Assembly (NCBI GenBank): GCA_020726285.1
Contig: DYSW01000015.1
Coordinates: forward strand, 1-33,604
Reading direction: 5' to 3'
From: Melioribacter roseus
Lineage (GTDB): Bacteria > Bacteroidota > Ignavibacteria > Ignavibacteriales > Melioribacteraceae
DNA: 33,604 nt
The translations under genes and the position numbers were made by a program. The notes beneath the pieces are model-generated. The model did not search any database, was not told the origin of the DNA, and saw only the letters and a program-made list of their open reading frames with translations. Numbering within the stretch: position 1 is the stretch's first letter; each line of letters starts with the position of its first letter. Below are positions 1,491 through 21,884 of the stretch, piece by piece.

Positions 1491-1517
1491 TTGTTTGATT
1501 TGTTTGATTTATTTGAT
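1491..1517. repeat. Three tandem 9-nt repeats spanning a stop codon
   Basis: TTGTTTGAT (1491-1499), TTGTTTGAT (1500-1508) and TTATTTGAT (1509-1517) lie head to tail. The third copy contains the TAA stop of the BNR propeller gene (complement of 1509-1511), and the array ends next to the ribosome site of the SBBP gene. It forms nearly the whole 31-nt intergenic spacer. Confidence 0.85.
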
Positions 1518-3713: not shown

Positions 3714-3726
3714 GTAAACTCCTGAA

Positions 3727-5169
3727 TTACTGTAAAAATCTCATGTTAAAAAATAAACCTAAACTATTCTTATATCTGTTGTCATTTGTTTTGTATGATG
3801 CATATTCAATTTCTGGGGCAAAAATTATCTCAGATGAATAATGATAAATTGTTCCAAACGTGAATTTATGTGCAACTAAATCTGAACCACCTTTTGTGAA
3901 ATCGTGATTGCCATATAAAAAGTTATAACCAAAAAGTATTGATGTTTCTTCAATTAAATTGTAATCAAAACCGAGTTTCAATTTATGTAAGAAATTTGAA
4001 AGGGAAGATGATTTTCCATCGATGTATTTTGATGAATCGGTTTCAATGGAATGAATTTCATATTCAAATGCTGTTAAAAGGTTGTTGTTAAACAATTTAT
4101 ATGATGAACCAAATCCCAAATGAATATCGGAATAATTCCATTCCCAAATAAGTAAATTTTTAATGGAATTTTGTGTCCAACTAGAATTTTGAAAATATCC
4201 ACTCGAAAATCCCAAGAGTATTTGGTCGTCAAACTTGTATTTGCCTTGTAGTTTCATGTCAATTTCTTCAAAATTAGAATATCCATCCTCAGTTTCAATG
4301 TTCGTAATAGGATAAATAAAACTTGTATTTGAAGTTGAATATTTAGCTGCAAATCCTAAACTCGTATTTAAATTGTTATTATACGCAAATTGTAACCCGA
4401 GTGAATTTGAGTTTTTGATAATCTTAAATTCTTGTTGTTGCTCGCGGAGTTCAATTCTATTCGTTTCTCCACGCCACAAATAAGTTTGAATTGAAAGTAA
4501 ATTTACATCACTTGCTTCAATTCGTTCTTGAAATGAATTGAAAGAATAATCAATTCCAGCCGAAAAAGCTTGTATTTTATAAGCTAAACCTACTTTGGAA
4601 TTAACATTTCTAAGTAATGAAATTGCATAGGAATAAACATTTTTCAGTCCATCAAGAATTTGGTAATTTCCTTCAAGTCCAAGAAAAAGATTTTGGTAAA
4701 TTCTAATTCCATGCGAAAAGCCAATTGATGGTCCACTATAATTTGTTGTTCCGGTTGTGGTATCAGTAAAAAAGTATGCTTCGCCATTGTATGATTCGTA
4801 TGTTAAAGCTCTGTAATTTTCCTTACGTGTTTGATAATTGTAGTTTGAAAATCCTTTAAAAGTACCAGCATCACCTAAATTGTATATTGCAATAAAGTCC
4901 GAACCAGTATTTCTGGTTGAGAATGGAGCAAATTTGTAGGAATAATTTCCCCATTCATCATTATAATATGGAGCGATATCAAGAATATCATTCTCATAAG
5001 AATTAGCAAGCCACGCTGGATTTTTCCCAAAATGGTAAATATCCAAATTTGATGAAATATTTTCAACCGAATATGATAAACCGCCAAGAGATTGTAATTT
5101 GTAATCTTGAGAATAAAACACTTGATTTGTGATTAGAGCAAATATAAGGGACAAAATCAACTGTTTCAT
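3727..5169 (-). CDS. Outer-membrane beta-barrel protein, DUF6850-like
   Basis: This 480-residue protein has a signal peptide (1-20, ending VFYSQ) followed by alternating amphipathic beta strands rich in Tyr, Phe, Asn and Ser, and it ends in an aromatic strand (LGLFFNMRFLQ). That is the pattern of an outer-membrane barrel. The early segment containing 'FGKNPAWLAN' resembles the NPA motif of DUF6850/PorV-like barrels. Its ATG (5169-5167) directly follows the TAA of the DUF4876-like gene (5172-5170), so the two are probably translationally coupled. From family knowledge, TonB receptor, DUF4876 lipoprotein and DUF6850 barrel tend to occur together in Bacteroidota; I name this family from gene order and a short motif only. 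The role is unknown, perhaps an accessory barrel for uptake through the neighbouring receptor. Confidence 0.72.
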   Translation of the reverse strand: MKQLILSLIFALITNQVFYSQDYKLQSLGGLSYSVENISSNLDIYHFGKNPAWLANSYENDILDIAPYYNDEWGNYSYKFAPFSTRNTGSDFIAIYNLGDAGTFKGFSNYNYQTRKENYRALTYESYNGEAYFFTDTTTGTTNYSGPSIGFSHGIRIYQNLFLGLEGNYQILDGLKNVYSYAISLLRNVNSKVGLAYKIQAFSAGIDYSFNSFQERIEASDVNLLSIQTYLWRGETNRIELREQQQEFKIIKNSNSLGLQFAYNNNLNTSLGFAAKYSTSNTSFIYPITNIETEDGYSNFEEIDMKLQGKYKFDDQILLGFSSGYFQNSSWTQNSIKNLLIWEWNYSDIHLGFGSSYKLFNNNLLTAFEYEIHSIETDSSKYIDGKSSSLSNFLHKLKLGFDYNLIEETSILFGYNFLYGNHDFTKGGSDLVAHKFTFGTIYHYSSEIIFAPEIEYASYKTNDNRYKNSLGLFFNMRFLQ

Positions 5170-6258
5170 TTACATTCCACCAGGGCTTGCGGCATCAATA
5201 ATTTCCCAATCGAGAGTTGCATCATCAGTATCAACGCTGGCTTCGCGTCTTTGCATAGATTTCCCACTATATTTTGATGGACTAAATGCAAATCCTTTAT
5301 CAATTCTGTCATCTAAAGTTTTGGTTGAATTACTACTTGATTGATATTCGACGCCATCCAAAATTGTTTCAATATCCATTCCATCTTCCCAAAATGCATC
5401 TTTTCCGTTTACCATAATTACAATATCTGAAGTTAAATTTATAAAAAAATCAGTTGTTCTATCAAGTCGGATATTTGAAAGATTTGGCACATTCGGATTA
5501 TCGAAATCGCTTGCGGAAAGTTGGTTGTAGAATTCCCAATCAGCATGACTTAAATCTACGGCAGTTGGAACAGAATTTTGATGATTGTAAGCAGTCTGCG
5601 CTAAAACAAGAAATTCTCTGGGATAAAAAGGGTAATTTTTTTCGCCGAAATTTCCTGGAAATTTGAATGCGTAAGTAACTCCGTCAATATCTCCATCTTC
5701 GCCCCAATCAGTTCCGGGGTCGGCTGTTCCATCATTTGTGCCAGAAACACGGTAAATCTGAATTCCATCTAAATATTTAATACTATCAGAGCTGTTTACA
5801 ATTTCGATATATTGATCATAAAAGAAGAAAATATTGTTAATTGGTCCGCCTGCATAGATTTCGTTAATTGAAATTCCGGTTGAGGAAACTAATTCAGTAA
5901 AAATTGTATCTGCAACAGGATTGCCACTAACAATTTCAACATTTTTCAAATTACCAACTATCATTCTATTTGGTTGATTTGGAATATTTGCTCGAGCTGA
6001 AATTTGATAAGTTGAGGAAGGTAAATGAGTTAGATGTAACATTCCTTCAGAATTTGTGTAATAAATTTTCACTCCGTATTCCGAAGTTAGAATAACTTTT
6101 GCGTTTGCAAGTGGAATTCCATCTGTTTTTGATGAAGTAGTATCCCAAATAGCGTAAATTGTAAGGTCAGTTTCTCCATCAACTTGAGATGGTGGATTTT
6201 CTGTACAACTCCAAAATGTAATTCCAAAAATTAATATTAGTAACAATTTTCTCATCAT
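5170..6258 (-). CDS. Lipoprotein with DUF4876-like / lamin-tail-like domain
   Basis: This 362-residue protein begins with a lipoprotein signal; the lipobox is F-W-S-C with Cys18 as the lipidation site. Residues about 30-110 form a small beta-sandwich with 'PLANAKVILTSEYG' and 'TNSEGMLHLTHLP', like a carboxypeptidase-regulatory fold. From about residue 130 the sequence ISINEIYAGGP...YDQYIEIVNSSD...YLDGIQIY matches the pattern of DUF4876 and lamin-tail domains (EI....YIEI.N..D..Y.DG). Later 'FLVLAQTAYNH' and 'DFDNPNVPNLSNI' also fit DUF4876. The start overlaps the receptor stop by 4 nt (ATGA) and the stop abuts the start of the next barrel gene. It is probably a surface or outer-membrane lipoprotein partner of the TonB receptor; the substrate is unknown. 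Confidence 0.78.
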   Translation of the reverse strand: MMRKLLLILIFGITFWSCTENPPSQVDGETDLTIYAIWDTTSSKTDGIPLANAKVILTSEYGVKIYYTNSEGMLHLTHLPSSTYQISARANIPNQPNRMIVGNLKNVEIVSGNPVADTIFTELVSSTGISINEIYAGGPINNIFFFYDQYIEIVNSSDSIKYLDGIQIYRVSGTNDGTADPGTDWGEDGDIDGVTYAFKFPGNFGEKNYPFYPREFLVLAQTAYNHQNSVPTAVDLSHADWEFYNQLSASDFDNPNVPNLSNIRLDRTTDFFINLTSDIVIMVNGKDAFWEDGMDIETILDGVEYQSSSNSTKTLDDRIDKGFAFSPSKYSGKSMQRREASVDTDDATLDWEIIDAASPGGM

Positions 6259-8951
6259 TTTCCTACAATCCTGTCAAAAATCATACTGAATTCAATTCCA
6301 TAAAATAGTTCTGGATTTCGTGTGTATTCAGTGTAATATTCTCGTATTTCGTCATATTTTTTCCATAACGCAGGATTATCAACAAAATTATTTACATAAA
6401 GTGATATTTCGGCACCATCAAATAATGATTTGGAAATGTTGAAATTGAACAGCCATTTTGGGGGACGAAGAAAAACTGATTCTTCCCACAATCTATTATT
6501 TCTGGCTTCATCAGTAAGTTTATCTAAATCAATTGGAAATAGCTGAAATTCTTGATTTCTATCTAAAACTAATTGTTCAGCACGTAAAGTAACCCAAAGT
6601 CCTAATTTTTTATTTGTGTAATTGATATAATAATTCAACTGAAAACCATCCGACCAATAACCTGAGCGTGGATAAGTCCAGCCAATTAATGTATCGGAAC
6701 TAACTTCGGGTGGTAAATAATTTGGGTACTGACCGATAGAAGTGTCGGGTGTTAACGAAAAGTTTTCTCCAATACTTGGTTGATAAGTAAAATTATATGA
6801 ACTAGTAACTTTGAAACTCATGTTCAGTTCATCAATTCGTTTGGTTTTAAGTGTAAATTCAATTCCGTGATTGTAATTTCTGCCAGAATTTGAATATTGA
6901 ATTAAATTACGGATGTAATAAATTTCGTTCACACCATTGTTATCAATTTCTGTGAAAATAGGTGAAATATAACTTATAGGTGAGTTGTTTTTTTCGCGAT
7001 AATAAGCTGAAAATGATGTGCCAATAAAATCAAATAATTTATGATCGTAGGAAATTTCAGCTTGTGTAGTTTGGTAACCTTTTAAGTCTGGATTTTTTTT
7101 GTCAAATCGGAAATGTGTAATTTCACCCGAAATTGGATTTCTCCATTCCATAACTTCTTCTGGTGGAAAAAGATACGACAATGGTGCAGTTTTTGAACTT
7201 TTTCCTAAATTAATTCTTAATTGGTTGTCTTTCGAAAAATAGACAAGTAAACTTAATCTTGGGTTAAAGAAACTTCCTTGATGTGATTTTATCAAATCAT
7301 TTTCATCAAATAAACCGCCTAAATTTAATTCAAAAGGTCTATAAAAATCGAATCTTGCTCCAATCAACAATGAAATATCCCACCAAAGTTTGCCTGTAAT
7401 TTTGTCTTCTGCATAGAAACTAAGTAAAGTTTGCGATGGAATTTCATCAAATGAATACGATCTTTTGCCAGAAGTTACTCCGTAATAATTGTAAACCGAA
7501 TCAACTATTAAACCTTCTCCAGTGTTATCTTCATATTGAATTTCAGAACCAATAAGTGTTTTGTGAATAAAATCGCTTGAATAAAAAATATTTTCCCATT
7601 CAATTCTTCCGCCTGATGTAATTTCCAAACCTTTGTTTTCAACAACACCGATGTACGAGGCAAGTGTATCATTTTGTGGAGTAATCAGATAATCGGTAAC
7701 AATTTTGCTTTCGCGTGAATCTATCTTTTTGATGTTTAAATAAGCATTATAATCAAATTTTGATGTAATTTCCGGTTGAATGATTCCCCAAGTATTAAAA
7801 CCAATTGAATAACTTCTGTTGTAATTTTTAGTCTTCTGAAAATCACCTTGTGGTTCTTCTTCGTCGTAAACAGTTTGTCCATATAGTTTATAATTCGATT
7901 TCCAAATATCTTTATAAATTGCAGAATAGACAGTTTGAGCGGTATATCTCGAAAATTCATCGCCGACCAATCGTAAATCACGTTCACTTCGAGCAATATT
8001 AAAATTGTAACTTATGGAATTTGTATTGTCTTCATTAGTTAAAAATCCTCCGTTAAAATTGGCTTCTTTTGTCTTAGGATTGATTTTCATTTTCATTCGC
8101 TGTGGTTCAGCACCCATTTTTGTTTGCAATTCAATAACGCCAGTAGTAAAATCACCGTAACGAACGGAAGGCATTCCAGAAATTACTGTAACAGATTCAA
8201 GATTATCTGCTGGAATTAATCTCAAATCAATGCCACCTTGTGTGTTAAAACTTCCAAACTTTGCACCATCTAATGCTTCAAATTGTAAATTGGAATTATT
8301 GGAAATTGGTTGTCCGTCTATTATTAATTTTGTTCCAAATGCTGATTGCGGATCAATATAATCCATTAAAGTAGTACGAGTTCCACGGACAGAAATTTGG
8401 CTTGTTTTATCAATTCCGGGATTAGTAGTTTTTTGAATACCAGGTACTAAATCAAGTACATCACCTAAATTTGTTGCTTGATAATGCTCAATTTCGCCAG
8501 ATTTTATTTGAGTTTTGGTTTCAACTGCATCGGGCATTAATTCATCTTCGGCACTAACTACAATTCCGCCAATGTTAAAAATTTTTGGCTTAAGAATAAT
8601 ATTTAATGAAGTAGTTTTATTAGATGAAATTGATATGTTGGTTGTTTGGGTTTCAAAGCCAATGTAAGAAATTTTGATATTGTGATTTCCAACCGATAAT
8701 TTTGGAATTATAAAATATCCTTCCAAATTTGTTGTTGTTCCAATTGAGGAATTAAGAATTACAATGTTAACGCCAATTAAAGGGGAATTTGTGTCGTCAA
8801 GAATTTTTCCAGATAAAGAACCAAATTGCAAATTACTTTGCCCAAAAAGTAAGGTTGCTGAGAAAAATAATAAAATCAGTAGATAATTTAATTTCCTGTT
8901 AAAAAAACAAAATATATTATAAGTGAAAATTGTTGTTTTGTAACGCTTCAA
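6255..8951 (-). CDS. TonB-dependent receptor with CarboxypepD_reg-like N-domain
   Basis: This 898-residue outer-membrane receptor takes up an unknown ligand using TonB energy. A hydrophobic signal segment (21-36) ends LLFGQ. Residues about 45-122 form a CarboxypepD_reg-like domain (GSLSGKILDD...SPLIGVNIVI...TNLEGYF). A plug domain at about 140-280 has LGDVLDLVPGIQ, ISVRGTR, LIIDGQPISN and MPSVRYGDFTTGVIEL. The rest is a long barrel rich in Tyr and Asn. The start is a TTG (complement of 8949-8951), preceded by GGCGGAG at good spacing; an in-frame stop lies at 8970-8972 and no ATG lies between, which supports TTG. It is the first gene of the leftward operon and overlaps the DUF4876-like gene by 4 nt. 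No promoter is clear upstream; a weak TAAGTTTAAT sits about 70 nt before the start. Confidence 0.92.
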   Translation of the reverse strand: MKRYKTTIFTYNIFCFFNRKLNYLLILLFFSATLLFGQSNLQFGSLSGKILDDTNSPLIGVNIVILNSSIGTTTNLEGYFIIPKLSVGNHNIKISYIGFETQTTNISISSNKTTSLNIILKPKIFNIGGIVVSAEDELMPDAVETKTQIKSGEIEHYQATNLGDVLDLVPGIQKTTNPGIDKTSQISVRGTRTTLMDYIDPQSAFGTKLIIDGQPISNNSNLQFEALDGAKFGSFNTQGGIDLRLIPADNLESVTVISGMPSVRYGDFTTGVIELQTKMGAEPQRMKMKINPKTKEANFNGGFLTNEDNTNSISYNFNIARSERDLRLVGDEFSRYTAQTVYSAIYKDIWKSNYKLYGQTVYDEEEPQGDFQKTKNYNRSYSIGFNTWGIIQPEITSKFDYNAYLNIKKIDSRESKIVTDYLITPQNDTLASYIGVVENKGLEITSGGRIEWENIFYSSDFIHKTLIGSEIQYEDNTGEGLIVDSVYNYYGVTSGKRSYSFDEIPSQTLLSFYAEDKITGKLWWDISLLIGARFDFYRPFELNLGGLFDENDLIKSHQGSFFNPRLSLLVYFSKDNQLRINLGKSSKTAPLSYLFPPEEVMEWRNPISGEITHFRFDKKNPDLKGYQTTQAEISYDHKLFDFIGTSFSAYYREKNNSPISYISPIFTEIDNNGVNEIYYIRNLIQYSNSGRNYNHGIEFTLKTKRIDELNMSFKVTSSYNFTYQPSIGENFSLTPDTSIGQYPNYLPPEVSSDTLIGWTYPRSGYWSDGFQLNYYINYTNKKLGLWVTLRAEQLVLDRNQEFQLFPIDLDKLTDEARNNRLWEESVFLRPPKWLFNFNISKSLFDGAEISLYVNNFVDNPALWKKYDEIREYYTEYTRNPELFYGIEFSMIFDRIVGK

Positions 8952-11298: not shown

Positions 11299-12081
11299 AT
11301 GAGACGAAGTATTTTTATCGGAATGTTACTTTTATCAGTATTTATTGCAAAAGATAATTTTGCACAAAATTTTATATGGCACCGCGATTTTAATAAAGCT
11401 TCAGAAATTGCAAAAAAGGAAAACAAGTATATTCTTGTAGATTTTTACACAGATTGGTGTAAATGGTGCAAAGTGATGGATGAAAAAACATATTCAAATC
11501 CCGAAGTATCAAATAAAATGAAAAAGTATTTTGTTGCCGTAAAAATTAATCCAGAAAAAGAAGGAAATGTTAAATTTATGGGACAATCATACACATTTGC
11601 TCAATTTGCACAAGCCGCTGGCGTTACGGGTTATCCTTCAACTGGACTTTTTACTTCGAATGGTGAATTTATAACAAACATCACTGGTTATCTCGATATT
11701 CCCAAATTTGATGGAATGCTTTCTTATCTACTTGGTGGAAAATACAAACAACTTAGCTACGAAGATTATTCTCTTTATATTATGGTTGAGGCAGAATATA
11801 AAAAGAATCAAAGTAGTGCTGACTTAAATTTTGTAATGGGTTTTTTCAATCAAGTTGTTCTTAAAGATTTTAACAAAGCAAAATCATTTTACCAAGCAGC
11901 AGTAAAATCAAATAGCAACTTTTCAGAAGCATTTGCAGGTTTATCAGAAACATATAAATTGCTCGGTGATAATAAATCAGCAGAAAAAAATATGAAAACG
12001 GCAAAAAGTAAAGGATTTTCTGATGGACAAAATAAGATTATGAACAAAGTTTCTGAGATTGTTCAAAAATTGTTTTCATAG
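11299..12081 (+). CDS. Secreted thioredoxin-like protein with C-terminal helical (TPR-like) region
   Basis: This 260-residue protein has a signal peptide (1-23, ending NFAQ), so it acts in the periplasm or is secreted. Residues about 26-150 form a thioredoxin-7-type fold: FNKASEIAKKENKYILVDFY, then the active site WCKWC (Cys54 and Cys57), VAVKINPEKEG, and the cis-Pro loop in AGVTGYPSTGLF. The remaining 100 residues are helical; AKSFYQAAVKSNSNFSEAFA and GLSETYKLLGDNKSAEKNM read like one or two TPR units. Members of this group reduce or isomerise disulfides in exported proteins. The start is the ATG at 11299 behind TTGGAG. No partner is obvious next door; a 270-nt gap separates it from the following operon. 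Confidence 0.87.
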   Translation: MRRSIFIGMLLLSVFIAKDNFAQNFIWHRDFNKASEIAKKENKYILVDFYTDWCKWCKVMDEKTYSNPEVSNKMKKYFVAVKINPEKEGNVKFMGQSYTFAQFAQAAGVTGYPSTGLFTSNGEFITNITGYLDIPKFDGMLSYLLGGKYKQLSYEDYSLYIMVEAEYKKNQSSADLNFVMGFFNQVVLKDFNKAKSFYQAAVKSNSNFSEAFAGLSETYKLLGDNKSAEKNMKTAKSKGFSDGQNKIMNKVSEIVQKLFS

Positions 12082-12351: not shown

Positions 12352-13131
12352 ATGAAAACACTACTATTTGTTTTTTTGTTATTCCTTTTAATTGGATGTG
12401 AAAAGGAATATGATAATATTATTGACCCAAATACAAATGTTGAAGCATATCAAGTGCTTTCAGTAAATTCACCAGAAAATGTACGCTACACAGATGAAAA
12501 TGTATCAATTTCAGTAGAAATTAATAATTGGGAAACACAAATTAATAATGTTTGGGTCTCTTTAATTTCGCCAAATAATATTGAAATAACTTTTCCACTT
12601 GAGTTTTCTTTTGAAAATGGAGAAGTTGGGAATTTTATCACTGAAATTCCAACCGATTCGCTTAAAATAGCTGGAAGATATAAATTATATTTTGTTGTTG
12701 AAGATTTTCAACACGAAGAAGTATTAATAGGAATTTCTTACTTTGATTTTATTTCTGAGGTCGTGAATACTGAACCACAAGTCTCAAATTTACTAATACC
12801 TACTCAAATACAAAGAAATACAGCTTTTACTTTTACAATTGAAGCGGAAGACTCAAATGGTTATTCGGATATTAAATTAGTTTTCTATCGACTTTACGAT
12901 ATAGATGGGAATTTGATAGTTAACAATCAGAATATTAGTGAATATCCACTTTCCGATTCGGGCGATACTTCAGAAAGTGGCGATGTTACAGCAAACGATG
13001 GTATTTTTACAAACAAATTGGTGTTCCCAACAACTGCAGTCTTGGGTACTTATCGATTTGAGTTCCAAGTCAGAGATTATTCCAATGCTCTAAGTAATGT
13101 AATTTCACATAATATTGAGGTTATAGAATGA
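12352..13131 (+). CDS. Lipoprotein with beta-sandwich domains (choice-of-anchor-X-like C-terminus)
   Basis: I choose the ATG at 12352 because it gives a clean lipoprotein signal: MKTLLFVFLLFLLIGC, Cys16. An upstream ATG at 12304 would add 16 polar residues ahead of it. The mature protein (to residue 259) holds two beta-sandwich regions. The first has 'SPENVRYTDENVSISVEINN'. The second starts 'NTEPQVSNLLIPTQIQRN' and ends with 'SDSGDTSESGDVTANDGIF' and 'GTYRFEFQVRDYSNALSN', resembling choice-of-anchor X or FN3/Ig-like domains, whose D-x-G-D-x-x-x-x-D-G loop may bind Ca2+. The stop overlaps the next start by 4 nt (ATGA). It is first in a six-gene run and probably sits in the outer membrane; function unknown. 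Confidence 0.78.
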   Translation: MKTLLFVFLLFLLIGCEKEYDNIIDPNTNVEAYQVLSVNSPENVRYTDENVSISVEINNWETQINNVWVSLISPNNIEITFPLEFSFENGEVGNFITEIPTDSLKIAGRYKLYFVVEDFQHEEVLIGISYFDFISEVVNTEPQVSNLLIPTQIQRNTAFTFTIEAEDSNGYSDIKLVFYRLYDIDGNLIVNNQNISEYPLSDSGDTSESGDVTANDGIFTNKLVFPTTAVLGTYRFEFQVRDYSNALSNVISHNIEVIE

Positions 13132-14726
13132 AAAAAGTAATGATTTTTATTTTACTAACTTCTATAAGTTTGTTCTCACAGATAAATCCAGAAAATTTTC
13201 AACTTGATAATAAGTTGCGAAAATCGAATTCTCCAACTTCAACACCATTAAGCAATTCTATAAATGAAATTGTAATAGTGAATGATACAATTTGGATTGG
13301 CACAAGCAAAGGATTAAGTTTTACAGATAATAACGGGGTTAATTGGAACCATTTTTATCAATCTGAAGTCTTTGGAACCGAATCTATAATATCAATTGAA
13401 GAGAATAATGGAATTATATTTGTGTCCACAGGACATAATGAATCTGACCCAACTACTGGAGAAAGTGTAATTACAGGTTCTGGAATAAAAATTACAAATG
13501 ATGGTGGGCAAACTTGGATTTCTCATCCGCAATCAGTTGACGAGCCCGGAGATTCGTTAATTGTATATGGAATAAATACTTTGCGAATTCTTCCAGTAAC
13601 CGTTGAACAACAAAATGTAACTTACGATATGGCAGTTTTGGATGGTTATCTATACACAACTTCGTGGGCAGGAAATTTAAGAAGAACATTAATTTCGGAT
13701 TTACTTGAAAAGCCAGAAGTTACTTGGGAAAGAATTGTACTACCTCCCGATTATCTTGATGAAATTTTGCCAGATGAAGAATATTCATTTACAATTCAAG
13801 CAGTTTCTGGTTCATTTGGCAGAGAAGCAAATAACAATCATGTGGCATTTTCGATTGTTGCAACAGATTCAAATCATCTTTTTGTAGGCACCGCAAATGG
13901 AATTAACAAATCAGAAGATGGTGGGAAAAGCTGGAAAAAATTTAATCATCAAAACCAGGATTCAGCAATTAGTGGAAATTTTATTACGGCTTTAGCATAC
14001 GATAACACAACTGAAACAATTTGGGCATCAACTTGGCAAGCAGTTGCAACAAGCGAAGATTATGCAGTTAGCTTTTCAGTAAATGGTGGAAATTCTTGGA
14101 AAATTATTCTCGAAGATGAAAAGCCACATGGTTTTGGCTTTAAGAAATATTTTTCTGGTTCTGAGCAAATTAGTGATGTTTTTGTTGCAACTTCTAATAA
14201 TCTTTTCAGAAGTGAAGATCAAGGTTTGAGTTGGACAACTCCAAATTCAATTTATGATGAATATAAATCCATTGAAATAGATAATGAATCTTTTTATTCT
14301 GTTGCATCGGAAGATTTTGGGAATGGTGAATTCAATATTTGGGTCGGAACTTCCGGTGGGTTAGCAAAATTAACTGAAACCACTGCTTGGAATGGCATTT
14401 GGGAAATATTCTTTGCTTCAACTGCACTAAAAAACTCAATTTCATCGTACGCATTTCCGAATCCATTTAATCCTAATTATGATATTGTAAGAATAAAATA
14501 TTTTGTTGAAAAGGAAACTCAGCAAATTACTATCAGAATTTATGATTTCAATATGCAATTAGTTCGTAATCTTGTTCAAAATGTTGAACGAAACAAGGGC
14601 GAAAGAATGGAAAATTGGGATGGGAAAGATGATTCTGGTGAATTATTACCAAATGGAGTTTATTTCTATAAAATAAACATTGATGAAAATGATGCACTTT
14701 TTGGAAAGATTATGGTGATAAAATGA
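13128..14726 (+). CDS. Secreted beta-propeller with FlgD-Ig-like C-terminal sorting domain
   Basis: This 532-residue protein begins with a signal peptide (1-17, ending LFSQ). The body contains propeller strands of the BNR/two-component-regulator kind: 'IVNDTIWIGTSKGLSF', 'TNDGGQTW', 'LFVGTANGINKSEDGGKSW', 'SVNGGNSW', 'NNLFRSEDQGLSW' and 'FNIWVGTSGGLAKL'. From about residue 440 comes SYAFPNPFNPNYD, then 'TIRIYDFNMQLVRNLV', 'ENWDGKDDSGELLPNGVYFY' and a basic end. This is the FlgD-Ig-like form of the C-terminal domain found on T9SS cargo of this phylum group. Start and stop both overlap neighbours by 4 nt, so it is translated together with the lipoprotein before and the PorV-like gene after. It is probably exported and surface-bound; ligand unknown. 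Confidence 0.83.
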   Translation: MKKVMIFILLTSISLFSQINPENFQLDNKLRKSNSPTSTPLSNSINEIVIVNDTIWIGTSKGLSFTDNNGVNWNHFYQSEVFGTESIISIEENNGIIFVSTGHNESDPTTGESVITGSGIKITNDGGQTWISHPQSVDEPGDSLIVYGINTLRILPVTVEQQNVTYDMAVLDGYLYTTSWAGNLRRTLISDLLEKPEVTWERIVLPPDYLDEILPDEEYSFTIQAVSGSFGREANNNHVAFSIVATDSNHLFVGTANGINKSEDGGKSWKKFNHQNQDSAISGNFITALAYDNTTETIWASTWQAVATSEDYAVSFSVNGGNSWKIILEDEKPHGFGFKKYFSGSEQISDVFVATSNNLFRSEDQGLSWTTPNSIYDEYKSIEIDNESFYSVASEDFGNGEFNIWVGTSGGLAKLTETTAWNGIWEIFFASTALKNSISSYAFPNPFNPNYDIVRIKYFVEKETQQITIRIYDFNMQLVRNLVQNVERNKGERMENWDGKDDSGELLPNGVYFYKINIDENDALFGKIMVIK

Positions 14727-15709
14727 GAAAATATAGATTAATAGTTTTGATGTTGTTTTTTGTCTCCATTAGTTTTGCTCAACAAGAAATTAGCGAATTA
14801 GCTGGAAAACCTGGTGCTTTTAGCAGAATGGGATTTGGAGCACGCGGAATTTCAATGGGAAATTCACTTTCATCAGTAACAACTGGCAATTTGGTTGGAT
14901 TTCATAATCCAGCAATTGCTATTTATCAAGAACAAAGTTCGTTTCATTCGGGTTATTCCTTCCTCGCTTTAGATAGAAGTATGAATTTTATTAGCTTTAC
15001 TCGGAATTTCACTTTCGGTAGCAAAGAAAAGGGAAACGAATCAAAAGCTGGTTTAAGTATCGGATTAATCAATTCAGGCGTTTCTAAAATTGAAGAGCGA
15101 GACGATGAAGGGAATTTGCTTGGTGAATTATCTACTTCAGAGAATTTGTTTTATGGTTCGATTTCCAAAAACTTTGGCGAAAAATTATCAGTCGGGTTAA
15201 ATCTTAAATTTTATTATTATAGTTTGTATAAGGAAATAACAACATCTGGTTTTGGTTTCGATTTGGGATTTCTTTACAAAATTAATCCAAATTGGAATTT
15301 GTCATTGTTAATTACTGACATAAATTCAAGTTACAAATGGAATTCCACTTCACTTTATGATATTTATGGTACTGAAGAAACAAATAAATTTCCAATGTTT
15401 TACAAAATTGGTAGCTCTTATCATTTTGAGAAATACAATTTACTTTTGGCAACCGAATTTGAAAGATCGAACCTCGGAACAAACTATTTACGCTTTGGAT
15501 TTGAATATAATTTGATAGAAAATATGTTTTTGCGTGGCGGTTTTGATAGGATAAACCTTTCAAATTTTGAAGAACCTTCACTACCATCAATTGGATTTGG
15601 TTATTCTCGTCAGGTTTCTAAATTGCTTGTTGGCTTTGATTATGCATTTGTTTATGATGCGGTTACAATTTCAGATAGGCATATTTTAGGAATAATGTTA
15701 AATTTCTAA
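14723..15709 (+). CDS. PorV/PorQ family outer-membrane protein (first copy)
   Basis: This 328-residue protein has a signal peptide (1-19, ending ISFAQ). It then shows the family opening: GAFSRMGFGARGISMGNS followed by 'GFHNPAIAIY'. In PorV/PorQ proteins this segment reads 'lriG.gAra.amGga......a...NPA'. The rest alternates aromatic beta strands (FGFDLGFLYKINPNW, LRFGFEYNLIENMFLRGGF) and ends with an aromatic residue (ILGIMLNF), as in 14-strand FadL-like barrels. PorV shuttles T9SS cargo from the translocon to the surface attachment complex; PorQ is another T9SS part. Which role applies here is not certain. It overlaps the propeller gene by 4 nt, which suggests joint production with that cargo. 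Confidence 0.85.
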   Translation: MRKYRLIVLMLFFVSISFAQQEISELAGKPGAFSRMGFGARGISMGNSLSSVTTGNLVGFHNPAIAIYQEQSSFHSGYSFLALDRSMNFISFTRNFTFGSKEKGNESKAGLSIGLINSGVSKIEERDDEGNLLGELSTSENLFYGSISKNFGEKLSVGLNLKFYYYSLYKEITTSGFGFDLGFLYKINPNWNLSLLITDINSSYKWNSTSLYDIYGTEETNKFPMFYKIGSSYHFEKYNLLLATEFERSNLGTNYLRFGFEYNLIENMFLRGGFDRINLSNFEEPSLPSIGFGYSRQVSKLLVGFDYAFVYDAVTISDRHILGIMLNF

Positions 15710-15728
15710 TGTTAAAAAGGAAAAATTA

Positions 15729-16622
15729 GTGAATAAAATAGCGATTTTGTTGATTTTGTTGTTCGCAGTTGGGTTTTCTCAAACAAGTATAAACAGCGGA
15801 GCTTCGTTCCTAAAAATTGGAGTTGGAGCTAAAAATATTTCTACAGGCGATGTTGGAATTTTAACAACAGATGTTACTGGAGCTTATTATAATCCTGCAA
15901 CTTTAACATTAAACACACAAACGGAATTTCATTTTACACACAATTCCTGGATGAACGATGTTACAAACCAATATTTTGCAACAAAATTCATACTTTGGCA
16001 AATTCCATTCGCTTTTTCCATCTCTAATTTTAGAATTGAAGATATTGAAGTTTACACAAACCCAGGCGAACCAGAAGCCACTTTTCGGGCAAACTTTTTA
16101 GCCGCAAATTTTTCAACGGCAATAAAAATATCAGAAAAACTATCAGTCGGAACTACCATAAAGTATTTATACGAAGGAATTTACACAAACGAAGCAACGG
16201 GTTACGGATTTGATTTCGGTGGTTACTATTCAAACATTTTTGAAAATGTAAACTTGGCTATTTCTTTACAGAATTTGGGAAGTATCTCAGAATTTCGAGC
16301 AGAAAAAATTGAGTTACCAACTTCAGTCTCGTTTGGAGCAGATTATCAAATTCCGTTTGAAGAGTTCAAAGTTGATTCAAAATTCATTTTAGCAACAAAA
16401 CAATATTTTAACAACGAACCAACACATTTCCATTATGGGACGGAATTTGCTTACGATAATTTGTTTTTCATTCGGGCTGGGTATTTTTCCGGTTATGAAG
16501 CAAAATCCTATTCCGCTGGAATTGGTTTAAATTGGAAAAATATTCAATTAGATTACGCATATTCTCCATTTGATTACTCACTTGGGAATTCGCACATTAT
16601 TTCATTTAGTTATAATTATTAG
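15729..16622 (+). CDS. PorV/PorQ family outer-membrane protein (second copy)
   Basis: This encodes 297 residues from a GTG start at 15729, with AAAAAGG just upstream. Signal peptide 1-17 (ending VGFSQ). The family opening is GASFLKIGVGAKNISTGDVG, then 'GAYYNPATLTL'. Beta strands of barrel type follow, with the recurrent pattern 'LSVGTTIKYLYEGIYTNEAT' and 'GYGFDFGGYYSN', which also occurs in the first copy (LSVGLNLKFYYYSLY, GFGFDLGFLY). The protein ends HIISFSYNY. The two copies are clearly paralogues but differ at most positions, so the duplication is old. It begins 19 nt after the first copy and is followed after 8 nt by the FemAB-like gene. Confidence 0.85.
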   Translation: MNKIAILLILLFAVGFSQTSINSGASFLKIGVGAKNISTGDVGILTTDVTGAYYNPATLTLNTQTEFHFTHNSWMNDVTNQYFATKFILWQIPFAFSISNFRIEDIEVYTNPGEPEATFRANFLAANFSTAIKISEKLSVGTTIKYLYEGIYTNEATGYGFDFGGYYSNIFENVNLAISLQNLGSISEFRAEKIELPTSVSFGADYQIPFEEFKVDSKFILATKQYFNNEPTHFHYGTEFAYDNLFFIRAGYFSGYEAKSYSAGIGLNWKNIQLDYAYSPFDYSLGNSHIISFSYNY

Positions 16623-16630
16623 GTTTTATA

Positions 16631-17596
16631 GTGATTGAAATTGTTCAATATTCAGAAGAATGGAAAATAAAATGGGACAGTTTTGTAGATGAATCAAACA
16701 ATGGGACAATGTTTCATAAACAAGCATTTTTTGATTATCATACAATGGGGAAGTTTACTTTTAATCATTTAATTTTTATTGAAAATAGCAATATTTTAGC
16801 TCTTTTACCAGGCTCAATAAGAAATGGAAATTCTTTTGAATCGCCAATTGGAGCAAGTTATGGTTCTTTGGTTACAAAAGACCTTAAATTTGAAACAGCT
16901 TTAGAACTTGTCCAAACACTTATTAATTATGGAAAAGAGAAAAATTGGGAAACAATTTATTTAACATCGGCACCGCGAGTTTATGAAAAGCATCAGAATG
17001 AAAATTTAGATTTTGCATTACTTTGGCTCGGGTTCAAATATGATCTTCATTACATTTCGAGTGCAATTAAGTTGGAAAAAGGAATTGATTATTTTGAACG
17101 ATTTTCTCCAACAATTAGAAGAAATGTAAGAAAATCACTTTCAGATTCAGATATTCGTGTTGAAATCAATGAAAGATACGATGAATTTTATCCAATTCTG
17201 ATTGAAAATAAAGCTCGTCATAATGTAAAACCAACACATTCCTACAAAGATTTGCTAAAATTAAAACAACTTATGCCAAATGAACTTAAACTTTTTATGG
17301 TTTATTATAAAGATAATCCTATTGGAGGTTCGTTAATGTTTTATCCAAATAAACAAGTTGCGTTGTGTTTCTATAATATGCTCAAATACGATTTTCAGTA
17401 CTTAAAACCTATTCAAAGAGTTATGTACGAACTAATTCTTGATGCTACGGAAAATGGTTTTTCGTATGTAGATATTGGTGTCTCACAAGATACAAAAGCT
17501 GAAAATCCGATGACACCGAGTAGAAACTTAATAATATTTAAAGAAAAGTTTGATGCAAAAACTGTAATGAGAAATACATTTAAGTACACTTATTAA
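16631..17596 (+). CDS. FemAB-like / GNAT-fold acyltransferase
   Basis: The frame gives 321 residues from a GTG start at 16631 (no nearer ATG; the next in-frame Met is residue 27). The layout matches FemAB-like proteins with two GNAT folds: an N-terminal half with 'NGTMFHKQAFFDYH' and 'ALLPGSIRNGNSFESPIGASYGS', and a C-terminal half with 'FSPTIRRNVRKSLSDSDIRV', 'LFMVYYKDNPIGGSLMFYPN', 'YNMLKYDF' and 'GFSYVDIGVSQ'. FemA/FemB add amino acids to peptidoglycan; many relatives in exopolysaccharide and lipid clusters have other acceptors. It lacks a signal peptide and is cytoplasmic. It lies between the PorV-like pair and a glycosyltransferase, so an envelope glycan or lipid substrate is a fair guess. 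Confidence 0.8.
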   Translation: MIEIVQYSEEWKIKWDSFVDESNNGTMFHKQAFFDYHTMGKFTFNHLIFIENSNILALLPGSIRNGNSFESPIGASYGSLVTKDLKFETALELVQTLINYGKEKNWETIYLTSAPRVYEKHQNENLDFALLWLGFKYDLHYISSAIKLEKGIDYFERFSPTIRRNVRKSLSDSDIRVEINERYDEFYPILIENKARHNVKPTHSYKDLLKLKQLMPNELKLFMVYYKDNPIGGSLMFYPNKQVALCFYNMLKYDFQYLKPIQRVMYELILDATENGFSYVDIGVSQDTKAENPMTPSRNLIIFKEKFDAKTVMRNTFKYTY

Positions 17597-17598
17597 AA

Positions 17599-18717
17599 AT
17601 GATTTCTGTTGATTTTTGCTCGGTTTTTCTTTCAAACCCAATTTACGATTCAAGACTTGTTAATCTTGATGAATCGTTAACGAAAAATTCAAAATCTACT
17701 GCAGTTGTTGGTTTTGATTGGTTTGAAAAGTCGAAGAAAATATCAAAAACTAATTGGTTTATTTTTAAAATAAAACGCCGTCCCGCTTTCATTTTTTATT
17801 CGAAATTCATTTTTTTAGCATTTATTAAACTCAAAGAAATTAAAGCAAAAACTTATATAGCTGAAGATGTTTATTCGCTTCCAATTGTTGTGTTTTGGGC
17901 AAAAATTAGAAAAGCAAAAATATTATATAATAGTCGCGAATTTTATTTTGCTCTCGGCGGTCTTTCAAAGCGTCCGAAAATTCAAAAGTTAATTAGTTGG
18001 ATTGAAAATAAATTTATAAAATCAGTTGACTTTGTGCTTGCAACAGGAGAAATGGATAAGGAGATTTTGGAAAAGCAATATCAGATTTCAAATGTCCGAG
18101 TAATAAGAAATATTCCAAAAATGACTTTCCCAACTTCCAAGATTGATTTTCGAGAGAAATATAATTTATCAAATGATTGTTTTATAATGATTTATCAAGG
18201 AATATTGCAAGAAGGGCGTGGAATTAAGTTAGTTTTGAATACAATCTCAGAAATTGATGATATTGCATTTATAATAGTTGGAGATGGTCCGAAATCTGAA
18301 GAATACAAGAAAATTGTTGAAGAAAAACGGCTGGAGAGCAAAGTCTTTTTTATTGGATTAGTTGAACATAAAGAATTAATAAATTATTCTGCTTCGGCTG
18401 ATATTGGTTTATCATTGATTGAAAATATCTCGTTAAGTTATTTCTATGCGTTACCAAACAAACTTTTTGAATATATAAATTCTGGAATTCCAATTTTATC
18501 ATCTGATTTACCGCAAATGAAACAGATTATTGAAAAGTATAAAATTGGTCGAATTGTGAATTTAGAGCATAAGCCGGAAGCAAATCTGAAGAATGAAATA
18601 CAAATAATGCGAGACAATCCTCAATATTTATTACAAATGAAATCAAATACAATTCGAGCTGTGCAGGAATTAAATTGGGATGTTGAATTTGAAAGAAATA
18701 TAGACATATTTCAGTAA
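17599..18717 (+). CDS. Glycosyltransferase, GT4-like (GT-B fold)
   Basis: This encodes 372 residues, starting 2 nt after the previous stop. The N-terminal Rossmann half contains 'YIAEDVYSLPIVVFWAKIRK' and 'ILYNSREFYFALGG', the position of the acceptor site. The C-terminal half has the donor site of GT-B retaining enzymes: IMIYQGILQEGRGIKLVLN, IIVGDGPKSEEY, VFFIGLVEHKELINYSASAD and GLSLIENI...ALPNKLFEYINSGIPILSS, with Glu in FEYINSG as the usual nucleotide-sugar contact. It is soluble or peripheral on the inner membrane. As the last gene of the run it probably modifies an envelope glycan together with the FemAB-like enzyme; sugar and acceptor are unknown. It converges on the ABC ATPase gene, 13 nt away. 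Confidence 0.87.
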   Translation: MISVDFCSVFLSNPIYDSRLVNLDESLTKNSKSTAVVGFDWFEKSKKISKTNWFIFKIKRRPAFIFYSKFIFLAFIKLKEIKAKTYIAEDVYSLPIVVFWAKIRKAKILYNSREFYFALGGLSKRPKIQKLISWIENKFIKSVDFVLATGEMDKEILEKQYQISNVRVIRNIPKMTFPTSKIDFREKYNLSNDCFIMIYQGILQEGRGIKLVLNTISEIDDIAFIIVGDGPKSEEYKKIVEEKRLESKVFFIGLVEHKELINYSASADIGLSLIENISLSYFYALPNKLFEYINSGIPILSSDLPQMKQIIEKYKIGRIVNLEHKPEANLKNEIQIMRDNPQYLLQMKSNTIRAVQELNWDVEFERNIDIFQ

Positions 18718-18730
18718 AAATTTTTTATAA

Positions 18731-19411
18731 TTAACTGATTTTAAAAATATTTCCATCTTCCATTTTAAGAATTCTATTACCAAGCTTTTCCAATTCCGAA
18801 TTGTGAGTAACAATTACAATAGTCAAATCCAATTTATTATGCAAATCCAAAAGTAAATCCTGAATAATTTTGCTGTTTTCAGAGTCAAGATTTCCAGTTG
18901 GTTCATCTGCAAAAAGTATTTTTGGAGAATTAATTAATGCTCTGGCAATTGCAACTCGTTGCTGTTCTCCGCCAGAAAGTTCCGCAGGTTTGTGAGAAAA
19001 TCTGTCGGAAAGATTCACTTTGTGAAGCATCTCTTCAGCTGTTTTAACTGCATTTTTATATGGAATGCCGTTAATCATTATTGGAATCGCAACATTTTCT
19101 AAAGCAGTAAATTCTGGTAAAAGGTGGTGAAATTGAAAAATGAATCCAATATTTTGATTTCTGAATGCTGAAATTTCGTCATCGGTTTTAGAGAAAATAT
19201 CTATTCCTTCAAATTCAACTTTGCCGCTATCAGGAAAATCCAAACTACTTAATATATTTAGCAGAGTACTTTTTCCAGCTCCCGAAGCACCAAAAATTAT
19301 TATTCTATCATTCTTATTTATTGTTAAATCTATATTTTTCAATACTTTGATTGATTTATTTGCAGATTTGAATTCTTTTACAAGTTGAGTGGCATTTATT
19401 AAAACTGACAT
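18731..19411 (-). CDS. lolD: ABC transporter ATPase, LolD-type
   Basis: This 226-residue ATPase has all motifs in order: Walker [10 protein letters not shown] (41-49), Q-loop [11 protein letters not shown] (90-100), signature [14 protein letters not shown] (145-158), Walker [13 protein letters not shown] (165-176) and switch His203 (VTHN). [16 protein letters not shown] is typical of the LolD/MacB group. With the two upstream permeases it forms a LolCDE-like complex, which extracts lipoproteins from the inner membrane for transfer to the outer membrane. It starts 1 nt after the permease stop. Several lipoproteins in this window (Cys17, Cys18, Cys16 in three genes) would be plausible clients. 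A MacB-like efflux role is less likely because the permeases lack the MacB periplasmic layout. Confidence 0.85.
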
Positions 19412-19412
19412 T

Positions 19413-20612
19413 TTATTCCCATTTTATTGATTCAATAATATTGGTTAAACTCGCTTTTTTAGCTGGATAATAACTGCTTGCAAACGATAGAAAAACAGAC
19501 ATCAAAACAATTGCGGGTAAATCCCAAAATGAAATTGAGACTGGCATAGCATCCAAAATATATTTTGAAGAATCAAGTTTATATACTTGAAAATATTTTT
19601 GAACAAAATAAATTGCTAAACCAAGCAAAAATCCCCAACTTGTTCCTTTTATGCCATTCAATAAGCCTTCAAAAAGGAAAATATTGCGAATTCCTTTTCG
19701 GCTTACTCCGAAAGACCGTAAAATTGCAATGTCTTTCTTTTTTATTTGAACCGACATTGTAAGCGAAGTTAAAATGTTAAAAGCGGCAACAGCAATTATT
19801 AAACTCAATAATAAGTAAGCAAAAAAAGATTCAATTTTCATAACATTAAGAATTTGGGCGTGGTTATCATTCCAAGTTTTAACAATTGCATCTGGAAAAT
19901 TGGCAGAAAGTTGGGTCTTGAACTCGTTTGCGATTTCAAGATTGAGTAGAAAAATTGCAATTGACTGCGTATTTCTATTCCGATTTGGGAAGATTTCTGA
20001 AGCCAAATTACTGCTCGCAAAAATATAATTTTTATACAAAGATGCATTTCTCGAAAAATAGATGTTCCGAATTTGCGTAGTTGTAATCTCCGGAATTGAA
20101 AAGGTAAGTACAGAATTTTCCAGACTTTCGAAACTTGTTATTTGAACAGAATCGCGAACTTGCAAATTCATTTCAATTGCCGAATAAAAACTAATAGCCA
20201 AATTACCATCATAAAATATAGTATCATATTCAGATAACTTATTATAAATCAATTGTTTAGAGCGAAATATTGAATCTTCAATTAAAATTAGATTTATGAT
20301 TTCAAAATGTTCTTTATTCCCAAATAGGACTTTGCCTTCCTCAAATTTATAAAAAAGGTCAACAAATTCGCTACTTTTCAAAAAATTAGAAATATCTTCA
20401 GAATCGTTGGTAGTTTGAATTATCAAATGCGGTTCTCCTTCGGTCATTAAAGCAGTGCTAATTTCACGAAATCCATTAAAAACTGAAAGAACAACAATCA
20501 ATGTTGCAACTCCAATTGCTATTCCAACAACTGAAATCTTATTTATTACATTAATAAATGAAAGACGTTTTTTAGCTTTATGATATTTATTTCCTATGAA
20601 AAATTCAAACAT
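19413..20612 (-). CDS. LolC/LolE-like FtsX-family permease (second)
   Basis: This 399-residue permease has the family layout. A cytoplasmic start (MFEFFIGNKYHKAKKRLSF) precedes TM1 (VGIAIGVATLIVVLSVFNGF, about 28-48). A periplasmic domain runs to about residue 260, and three C-terminal helices form the FtsX domain: SFFAYLLLSLIIAVAAFNIL, then 'KKKDIAILRSFGVSRKGIRN' on the cytoplasmic side, FLLGLAIYFVQ and LPAIVLMSVFLSFASSYYPA. The loop 'DIAILRSFG(V/M)S' is the coupling helix that contacts the ATPase. The ATG (20612-20610) overlaps the stop of the first permease by 1 nt (TAATG). It probably forms a heterodimer with that protein. Confidence 0.87.
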   Translation of the reverse strand: MFEFFIGNKYHKAKKRLSFINVINKISVVGIAIGVATLIVVLSVFNGFREISTALMTEGEPHLIIQTTNDSEDISNFLKSSEFVDLFYKFEEGKVLFGNKEHFEIINLILIEDSIFRSKQLIYNKLSEYDTIFYDGNLAISFYSAIEMNLQVRDSVQITSFESLENSVLTFSIPEITTTQIRNIYFSRNASLYKNYIFASSNLASEIFPNRNRNTQSIAIFLLNLEIANEFKTQLSANFPDAIVKTWNDNHAQILNVMKIESFFAYLLLSLIIAVAAFNILTSLTMSVQIKKKDIAILRSFGVSRKGIRNIFLFEGLLNGIKGTSWGFLLGLAIYFVQKYFQVYKLDSSKYILDAMPVSISFWDLPAIVLMSVFLSFASSYYPAKKASLTNIIESIKWE

Positions 20613-21829
20613 TAAAAGCTCTTTAGAATTTGTGTTGGAGAAAAATGTTTAGTAATTCGGCTCGGAATAAGTGAAATTAGCGTTCCTAAAAGCAAAGTTG
20701 AAAAAGTAACAATCAAGTAAATTGTAAAATCAGAATCGATAGTAACTTGCTCGATAAAATAAATCTCGCTTGGTAAATTGATAATTACAAATTGATTTTG
20801 AAGAAAAGTTAGAGTAATTGCAATCAGAATTCCTAAAACAGTGCTGAAAAACGTGATAAAAATTCCTTGTAATATGAAAACTATGTTAATATCACTTTTT
20901 TTCATTCCAAGTGAGAGAAGTATTCCGATAGCATTTCTCTTTCTTAAAATTATAATAAGCAACGAACCGATAATATTAAAGCTAGAAACAAGTAAAATTG
21001 CAGTTAAAACAATCGGAATTGGAACTTTCTGAAGTTCAAGCCAAACAAAAATATTTCGATGAATTTCTTCAATATTGCGTATCCAAAAAGGGTAAGGAAG
21101 TTTGTTTTTCAGATTTTTTGATATTTGTGCAGTTTTTGAATAATCACTTAGAAAAATATTAATTCCTGAAAAATGATTCTCAGGGAATGAAAACAAATTC
21201 TTTGCTACATCAACTGAAGTTAATGCCAATTCAGAATCATAAAAATGCATTCCCGATTTTATAATTCCACTAACACTAAATTGTTCAATATTAGGAAGAA
21301 TTTCTGTAAAAGATGAATTTTCATTGCTCAAAGCAAAAATTGTTAGCGAACTACCGATAGAAATGTGTAATTTATCAGCCAATTCAAAACCAAGTACAAT
21401 CTCGTTTGAAGAAGTAGGCATTTTTCCCATTATCAAAAATCTTGAAATATTTTTCCAAGTTGTTTTTTGCGGTAATCCAATAACTAAAGCTCCATCAGTA
21501 AATTTATCAGACTTTGCGACAGCATATTGTGAAATGAGAATCTCATATTCAACAATTCCATTTTTCATTTCATCTAAAATAATATTGTTGATTTTTTCAT
21601 TAATAATTAAAGGTTTATTCGAAAAACCTACAATTTTAATGTCAGAATCAAAACTATGAGAAAGTTTCTCAATATTTTTCTGGAAGCCATTTAATATTTG
21701 CAGCGCTAAAATTAATACAGCAACTCCAATACCTATCGATGCGAAAGTAATCCAATTAATTAAGGAAAAGAAACTATTTTCTTTCGAACTTCGTATTAAT
21801 TTTTTGAGGACAAAAAGGTTAAATGACAT
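20612..21829 (-). CDS. LolC/LolE-like FtsX-family permease (first)
   Basis: I choose the ATG at 21829, giving 405 residues starting MSFNLFVLKKLIRSSKEN, which fits the family start 'FEL(F/Y)IAxRYLRS'. A TTG at 21859 would add ten residues with no ribosome site. TM1 is ITFASIGIGVAVLILALQIL, then a periplasmic domain and three C-terminal helices: VPIPIVLTAILLVSSFNIIG, the coupling loop 'RKRNAIGILLSLGMKKSDIN', VFILQGIFITFFSTVLGILI and FTIYLIVTFSTLLLGTLISL. It is similar in layout to, but diverged from, the second permease, matching LolC plus LolE. It is first in the three-gene operon and lies back to back with the tRNA array; the 110-nt space between holds the tRNA promoter. Confidence 0.86.
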   Translation of the reverse strand: MSFNLFVLKKLIRSSKENSFFSLINWITFASIGIGVAVLILALQILNGFQKNIEKLSHSFDSDIKIVGFSNKPLIINEKINNIILDEMKNGIVEYEILISQYAVAKSDKFTDGALVIGLPQKTTWKNISRFLIMGKMPTSSNEIVLGFELADKLHISIGSSLTIFALSNENSSFTEILPNIEQFSVSGIIKSGMHFYDSELALTSVDVAKNLFSFPENHFSGINIFLSDYSKTAQISKNLKNKLPYPFWIRNIEEIHRNIFVWLELQKVPIPIVLTAILLVSSFNIIGSLLIIILRKRNAIGILLSLGMKKSDINIVFILQGIFITFFSTVLGILIAITLTFLQNQFVIINLPSEIYFIEQVTIDSDFTIYLIVTFSTLLLGTLISLIPSRITKHFSPTQILKSF

Positions 21830-21884
21830 TAACTGAAATATTTCCAAAATTGTGAACAAAAAAATAAAAAAAATCCATATAAAA

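Follow-up and report, generated by a model that had tools for sequence, protein, structure and literature searches.

A propeller-and-barrel operon of Melioribacter roseus as a candidate additional type IX secretion surface subcomplex

A stretch of 33,604 nucleotides from Melioribacter roseus (here the window; contig DYSW01000015.1, labelled C108 within a 2.06-Mb draft genome) carries an operon of six genes, A to F, encoding a lipoprotein, a beta-propeller protein with a type IX secretion system (T9SS) C-terminal domain, two outer-membrane barrels related to PorV and PorQ, a FemAB-like enzyme and a glycosyltransferase. The core of this operon is the unit A-B-C-D, which is smaller and much more widely spread than the six-gene set, and E and F are frequent partners outside that core. 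With roughly even confidence, we propose that A-B-C-D forms an additional T9SS-dependent surface subcomplex working like PorZ:PorQ, and the best reading of propeller B is that it is a retained component of this complex, not ordinary cargo.

The six open reading frames all lie on the forward strand: A (12352-13131, 259 aa), B (13128-14726, 532 aa), C (14723-15709, 328 aa), D (15729-16622, 297 aa), E (16631-17596, 321 aa) and F (17599-18717, 372 aa). From A to F the junctions are two overlaps of 4 nt followed by gaps of 19, 8 and 2 nt. The coordinates thus bear out the close packing on one strand described in the original prediction, and profile searches agree with its naming of the gene types, barrel C scoring below its family cut-off with PorV/PorQ as best family. 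A promoter and terminator scan returned 47 promoter-like sites (34.7 expected) and one terminator-like site (2.7 expected).

The order A-B-C-D-E-F is kept in all eight B loci of the named genomes; at two of them, L025 and L026, an additional gene separates D from E. One of the eight, L020, comes from a close relative whose six proteins are about 91-95% identical. Because these loci had been found through B, 149 genomes of the class were surveyed with profiles for B, C, D and E. With E-value cut-offs set at 1e-20 (B and E), 1e-30 (C) and 1e-40 (D), at which divergent copies may escape, B was present in 107 genomes, C in 105, D in 102 and E in 83. B, C and D proved nearly all-or-none: the three occur together in 102 of the 149 genomes, and only five more have B without D (three with B and C, two with B only). 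Where all three are present, B and D lie on the same strand no more than 3 kb apart in 99 of 102 genomes, the other three having the pieces on different contigs. B precedes C on one strand within 3 kb in 103 of 105 genomes and C precedes D in 101 of 102, the exceptions again being on different contigs.

The same pairing was seen across the phylum. In a sample of 395 genomes that included the class itself, B was found in 167 and C in 166; outside the class the counts were 105 for B and 104 for C, with both in 103, B only in two and C only in one. Among the matches listed, 67 of 74 outside-class genomes have B and C within 3.5 kb on one strand; in 61 of the 74 B is followed by C (gap <400), in six C is followed by B within 3.5 kb, and in seven the two are on other contigs or strands. 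Six-frame profile scans of 41 B loci (8 named, 14 from the class and 19 from the phylum) placed A beside B in 36, C in 40, D in 35, an upstream M50 protease in 25, F on the same strand in 14 and E in 13. The linkage of propeller and barrels that the original prediction proposed to examine in relatives is therefore borne out, propeller and barrels being hardly ever apart in either survey. A second B-like propeller (687 bits), likely a tandem duplicate, lies directly 5' of A at L027:7349-8941. The M50 protease, which usually directly precedes the module, was considered as a fixed member and rejected: of the 107 class genomes with B, 78 have it no more than 3.5 kb 5' of B (28 have it elsewhere, and in one it is not listed), and it occurs in 143 of the 149 class genomes irrespective of B. 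In this genus it is on another contig (L077, G000:C117:73832-74785), near genes that look SMC-like and HAD-like by eye.

B has an N-terminal signal-like segment, a propeller domain at about residues 38-431 (13239-14420) with a weak BNR repeat match, and a C-terminal domain at residues 443-532 (14454-14723). This tail scored 32.6 bits against FlgD_ig (cut-off 27) and 25.6 bits against TIGR04183 (cut-off 23), and thus scores as type A; it lies just under the cut-off of PF18962 (25.3 bits against 27), and the type B profile TIGR04131 gave 24.1 bits against a cut-off of 35. When the predicted model (pLDDT 77.1, 9 sequences) was searched with Foldseek, PorZ (5m11) ranked first (E 5.5e-13), followed by glycan-sensor ectodomains of the BT4673/BT4663 type. 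B resembles PorZ in architecture but is not PorZ. PF21544, the N-terminal propeller domain of PorZ, was not among the families matched by nine B proteins at E <= 0.01, and B holds a single propeller span within its 532 residues, whereas PorZ is described as two propellers and a C-terminal domain (PMC8545088) and its open frames in this class are mostly 730-800 aa.

A sequence signature, D/N-F-x-M, marks 43 of 49 B C-termini, most of which finish in a GKI-type strand; the cargo-like propeller of the same window (1509-3713) has the ordinary C-terminal form. Because B is nearly always single-copy, conserved from end to end and equipped with a C-terminal domain peculiar to its family, it looks more like a machine part such as PorZ than like cargo, and the original view of B as the one dedicated cargo of its operon becomes unlikely.

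Both barrels are relatives of PorV and PorQ, as had been predicted, most clearly in the case of D, which scored 147.6 bits against the PorV/PorQ family NF033709 (cut-off 90) and whose profile matched PorV (6h3i_F) in the PDB at E 9e-17. NF033709 is also the best family of C, at 69.4 bits and so below the cut-off, and was matched by all nine aligned C proteins. Neither barrel reached the equivalog profiles for PorV (NF033710, cut-off 250; D 77.2, C not listed) or PorQ (NF033711, cut-off 220; D 82.5, C 43.7). A sequence search with C against solved structures gave no matches, and its predicted model (pLDDT 67.5) was compared by fold. PorV came first (8gl6_F, Z 24.0, root-mean-square deviation 5.4 over 281 aligned residues; 6h3i_F, Z 23.8, 4.4 over 276), with CymD (Z 23.3) and FadL (Z 23.2) close behind. 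The expected likeness of barrel fold to PorV thus holds as a first match for C, tied however with FadL-type channels. In a quick tree of 84 barrels, some of whose rows are long and unsure of place, the 41 rows of C fall into one group (support 100) and the 36 of D into another (88), and a third (84) holds this genome's PorV, PorQ and PorV2-like barrel with four other paralogues. Four other PorV-family barrels of this genome (L103, L104, L105 and L106, on contigs C13, C72, C85 and C48) each follow a protein of 914-1222 aa, mostly with a T9SS-like tail ending FAIIK or FAVIK, and upstream of that protein stands another large one, resembling a TonB-dependent receptor by eye; barrel, tailed protein and receptor-like protein there make up a repeated three-gene cassette.

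The remaining core member, lipoprotein A, starts with ATG at 12352 and has a lipobox ending LLIGC. Its sequence is weakly conserved; the copy in the window has no Pfam family over cut-off, and a sequence search against solved structures returned weak matches only (E 0.027 and 0.037), the former between its N-terminal portion and a lipoprotein found in the T9SS translocon complex.

The canonical T9SS surface components are encoded elsewhere in the same genome: PorU at C105:954-4214 followed by PorV (259.8 bits, cut-off 250), PorQ on C91 (252.1 bits, cut-off 220) and PorZ, a PF21544 protein, on C65. The A-B-C-D module is therefore additional and parallel to this set and no replacement for it, in keeping with the earlier claim that the operon is separate from the general T9SS genes. 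Across the class, PorU was found at E <= 1e-30 in all 149 genomes (139 over cut-off), so no genome of the class has B without the T9SS sortase, and PorZ matches were found in 137 (133 over cut-off). Two simpler proposals were rejected on these counts: that B replaces PorZ, since canonical PorZ is present in 137 of 149 genomes including this one, and that the presence of the module simply follows that of T9SS, PorU being in 149 genomes and B in 107. No sortase was noticed in the gene cluster itself, although exosortase was not searched for.

The two enzymes downstream of the barrels behave differently from the core. E is a FemAB-like GNAT enzyme that matches PF13480 (Acetyltransf_6) at 32.5 bits (cut-off 22); PF02388 (FemAB) was matched by five of nine members of its alignment, and the search against solved structures gave a weak match (E 0.032) to an aminoacyl-tRNA-dependent peptide synthase. 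F is a GT4-type glycosyltransferase (PF00534, 56.1 bits, cut-off 26.4). E is present in 50 of the 102 genomes with B, C and D, no more than 3 kb from D in 43 of them, and was not found in the other 52 at E <= 1e-20; a further 33 class genomes have E without any of B, C or D. At six such E-only loci, F was present beside E in three. The FemAB-like and GT4 enzymes are therefore not borne out as integral parts of the operon, and their tie to it is loosened further by the loci at which the two stand on their own. More envelope-glycan genes flank the module at several Ignavibacteria loci (GT2, polysaccharide deacetylase, LPG_synthase_TM, GT9 and PMT_2). Between D and E, a PMT_2 (mannosyltransferase-like) gene occurs at L048:11512-12990 and L026:10931-12409, Pfam having been run on the L048 copy.

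How the core might work is suggested by PorQ:PorZ of Porphyromonas gingivalis, which shares with it a secreted propeller with a T9SS C-terminal domain and a PorV-family barrel. In that species, PMC5562754 describes PorQ:PorZ and PorU:PorV subcomplexes in which PorQ holds PorZ, and reports that PorZ shifts from the membrane to the soluble fraction in a porQ mutant. PorZ and PorU both retain their C-terminal domains, for which a review proposes protection from cleavage by the cognate PorV-like barrels (PMC10202324). PorZ is reported to bind anionic lipopolysaccharide (A-LPS), and its glycan binding was proposed from relatives among BT4663-type glycan sensors (PMC8545088). The present module differs in having one propeller instead of two and no PorZ Pfam domain, in bringing two barrels and a lipoprotein into one operon, and in coexisting with canonical PorQ and PorZ. 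It shares with PorU:PorV a PorV-family barrel for a protein that the T9SS exports and that keeps its C-terminal domain, as B would; the module itself has no sortase.

Following these precedents, B would pass through Sec and the T9SS translocon, as its signal-like segment and C-terminal domain suggest. A cognate PorV-family barrel, either C or D, may then recognise this domain, keep B uncleaved and fasten it to the outer membrane in the way that PorQ holds PorZ, a step to which the C-terminal signature and the gene linkage both point. The second barrel might carry B from the translocon or link the complex with further components, and lipoprotein A might stabilise the assembly. At the surface, the propeller would bind a glycan or glycolipid made by the variable neighbour genes (GT4, FemAB, GT2, GT9 and others) and could present it for attachment or assembly there, as the glycan genes beside the module at several loci hint.

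On the original prediction, the operon is a cassette that exports and anchors a single surface protein, cargo B, whose anchor the FemAB-like and GT4 enzymes would make. The preserved six-gene order of the named loci, the nearness of E to D in 43 of the 50 genomes having both, and the conservation of E (80% mean column identity, the highest of the six; the other five have 46-62%) all speak for it. It is nonetheless unlikely, given how often E and the core occur apart, the single-copy, fully conserved B with its own C-terminal signature, and the cluster in which no sortase was noticed. XrtA/PEP-CTERM loci do combine protein sorting with glycosyltransferases and an enzyme of FemAB type, but E scores 34.6 bits against their FemAB profile TIGR03019, far under the cut-off of 260.35, and is optional here. 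B could also be ordinary T9SS cargo that stands by chance beside two barrel paralogues. A conserved operon is by itself no proof of interaction, and this genome has other large proteins with T9SS-like tails beside PorV-family barrels; against chance, B and C occur together in 103 outside-class genomes with so few cases of either alone, and the C-terminal signature of B is special. We regard this as distinctly improbable.

Two further explanations start from the barrels. In a nutrient system, B would be a surface propeller that binds or cleaves glycans, and C and D would be FadL-like channels importing the products. The fold of C is about equally near to FadL/TodX-type channels and to PorV, and the propeller of B also resembles GH74 and sialidase-type propellers. 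PorV/PorQ is however the best family match of both barrels, no constant catabolic gene was seen beside the module in the loci examined (by eye only), and B is nearly always single-copy, so that we consider a nutrient role improbable. An accessory of outer-membrane biogenesis, very unlikely in our estimation, would resemble the BamG/BamH canopy of the Bacteroidota beta-barrel assembly machinery (BAM), in which BamG is described as a FadL-family barrel and BamH as a surface lipoprotein (PMC12611786). The arrangement of barrel plus lipoprotein is alike, and FadL-type chains of BAM complexes are among the fold matches of C (9n2d_B, Z 21.4, the highest; 9hjm_F, 21.2; 9hiv_F, 20.4). PorV nevertheless outscores these chains, many genomes gave no match to the module, and we know of no BAM part with a T9SS domain such as that of B.

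Several observations also weigh against a PorZ:PorQ-like complex. The TM-score of B to PorZ is low (TMq 0.39), and in VIA-align many unrelated propellers reach a Z of about 25, with PorZ missing from the best 50 rows; the propeller by itself is therefore not diagnostic, and the VIA-align result neither supports nor excludes kinship with PorZ. The contrast between the C-termini of B and those of other proteins draws on only seven non-B sequences and is indicative, not a statistic. Since C is tied between PorV and FadL-type channels, a transport role is possible. D was not found next to B in six of the 41 loci, and 42 of the 149 class genomes gave no match to B despite PorU being present in all, so the module is dispensable. 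Finally, the glycan genes around it vary and may be chance neighbours.

Other genes of the window deserve mention. Directly 5' of A, a thioredoxin-fold protein identified by a Pfam profile (11299-12081, forward strand) is a possible associate; among the 41 other B loci, five have a relative no more than 90 nt downstream of the barrels and a sixth has one a gene farther on, so that the gene recurs beside the module in the window and at L052, L055, L060, L067, L097 and L083. Just past F, and convergent with it on the reverse strand, are a LolD-like ATPase and a LolC/E-like permease (18731-21859), followed by a 415-aa gene. Positions 1509-8951, on the reverse strand, hold one run of genes for a TonB-receptor plug protein, a DUF4876 protein, a 480-aa product that matches no Pfam family and a T9SS-tailed YCF48-like propeller, another propeller-and-partner set within the window.

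The operon had been put forward as the best candidate in the window for an undescribed system. No description of the gene set was found in the open literature searched (subscription journals and preprints lay outside its scope), nor any paper there on type IX secretion with PorV in Ignavibacteria; the claim holds to that extent, the module being new only as a variant of the PorZ:PorQ-type unit. A known case of a secreted protein whose gene adjoins that of a barrel probably dedicated to it is that of Flavobacterium johnsoniae, where type B substrates are described as paired with their own PorP/SprF shuttles (PMC12618676). As far as that account describes such pairs, the present module differs in that B scores as type A, its barrels belong to the PorV/PorQ family, and B looks like a component and not an adhesin. 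A bolder and doubtful extension is that much of the Bacteroidota has a second whole attachment complex beside PorU, PorV, PorQ and PorZ, in which a single-propeller glycan carrier sits on its own barrel through a private C-terminal code, the second barrel is a dedicated shuttle, and local glycolipids are loaded onto the surface without, or before, the sortase.

If the PorZ:PorQ-like reading of A-B-C-D is correct, T9SS surface attachment would be the work not of one complex but of several related units, each a propeller with its barrel and each using a C-terminal code of its own. The module would then offer an independent natural case of a barrel shielding a C-terminal domain from the sortase, as the review proposes for the cognate PorV-like barrels (PMC10202324), and one that could be compared with PorQ:PorZ within the same cell.

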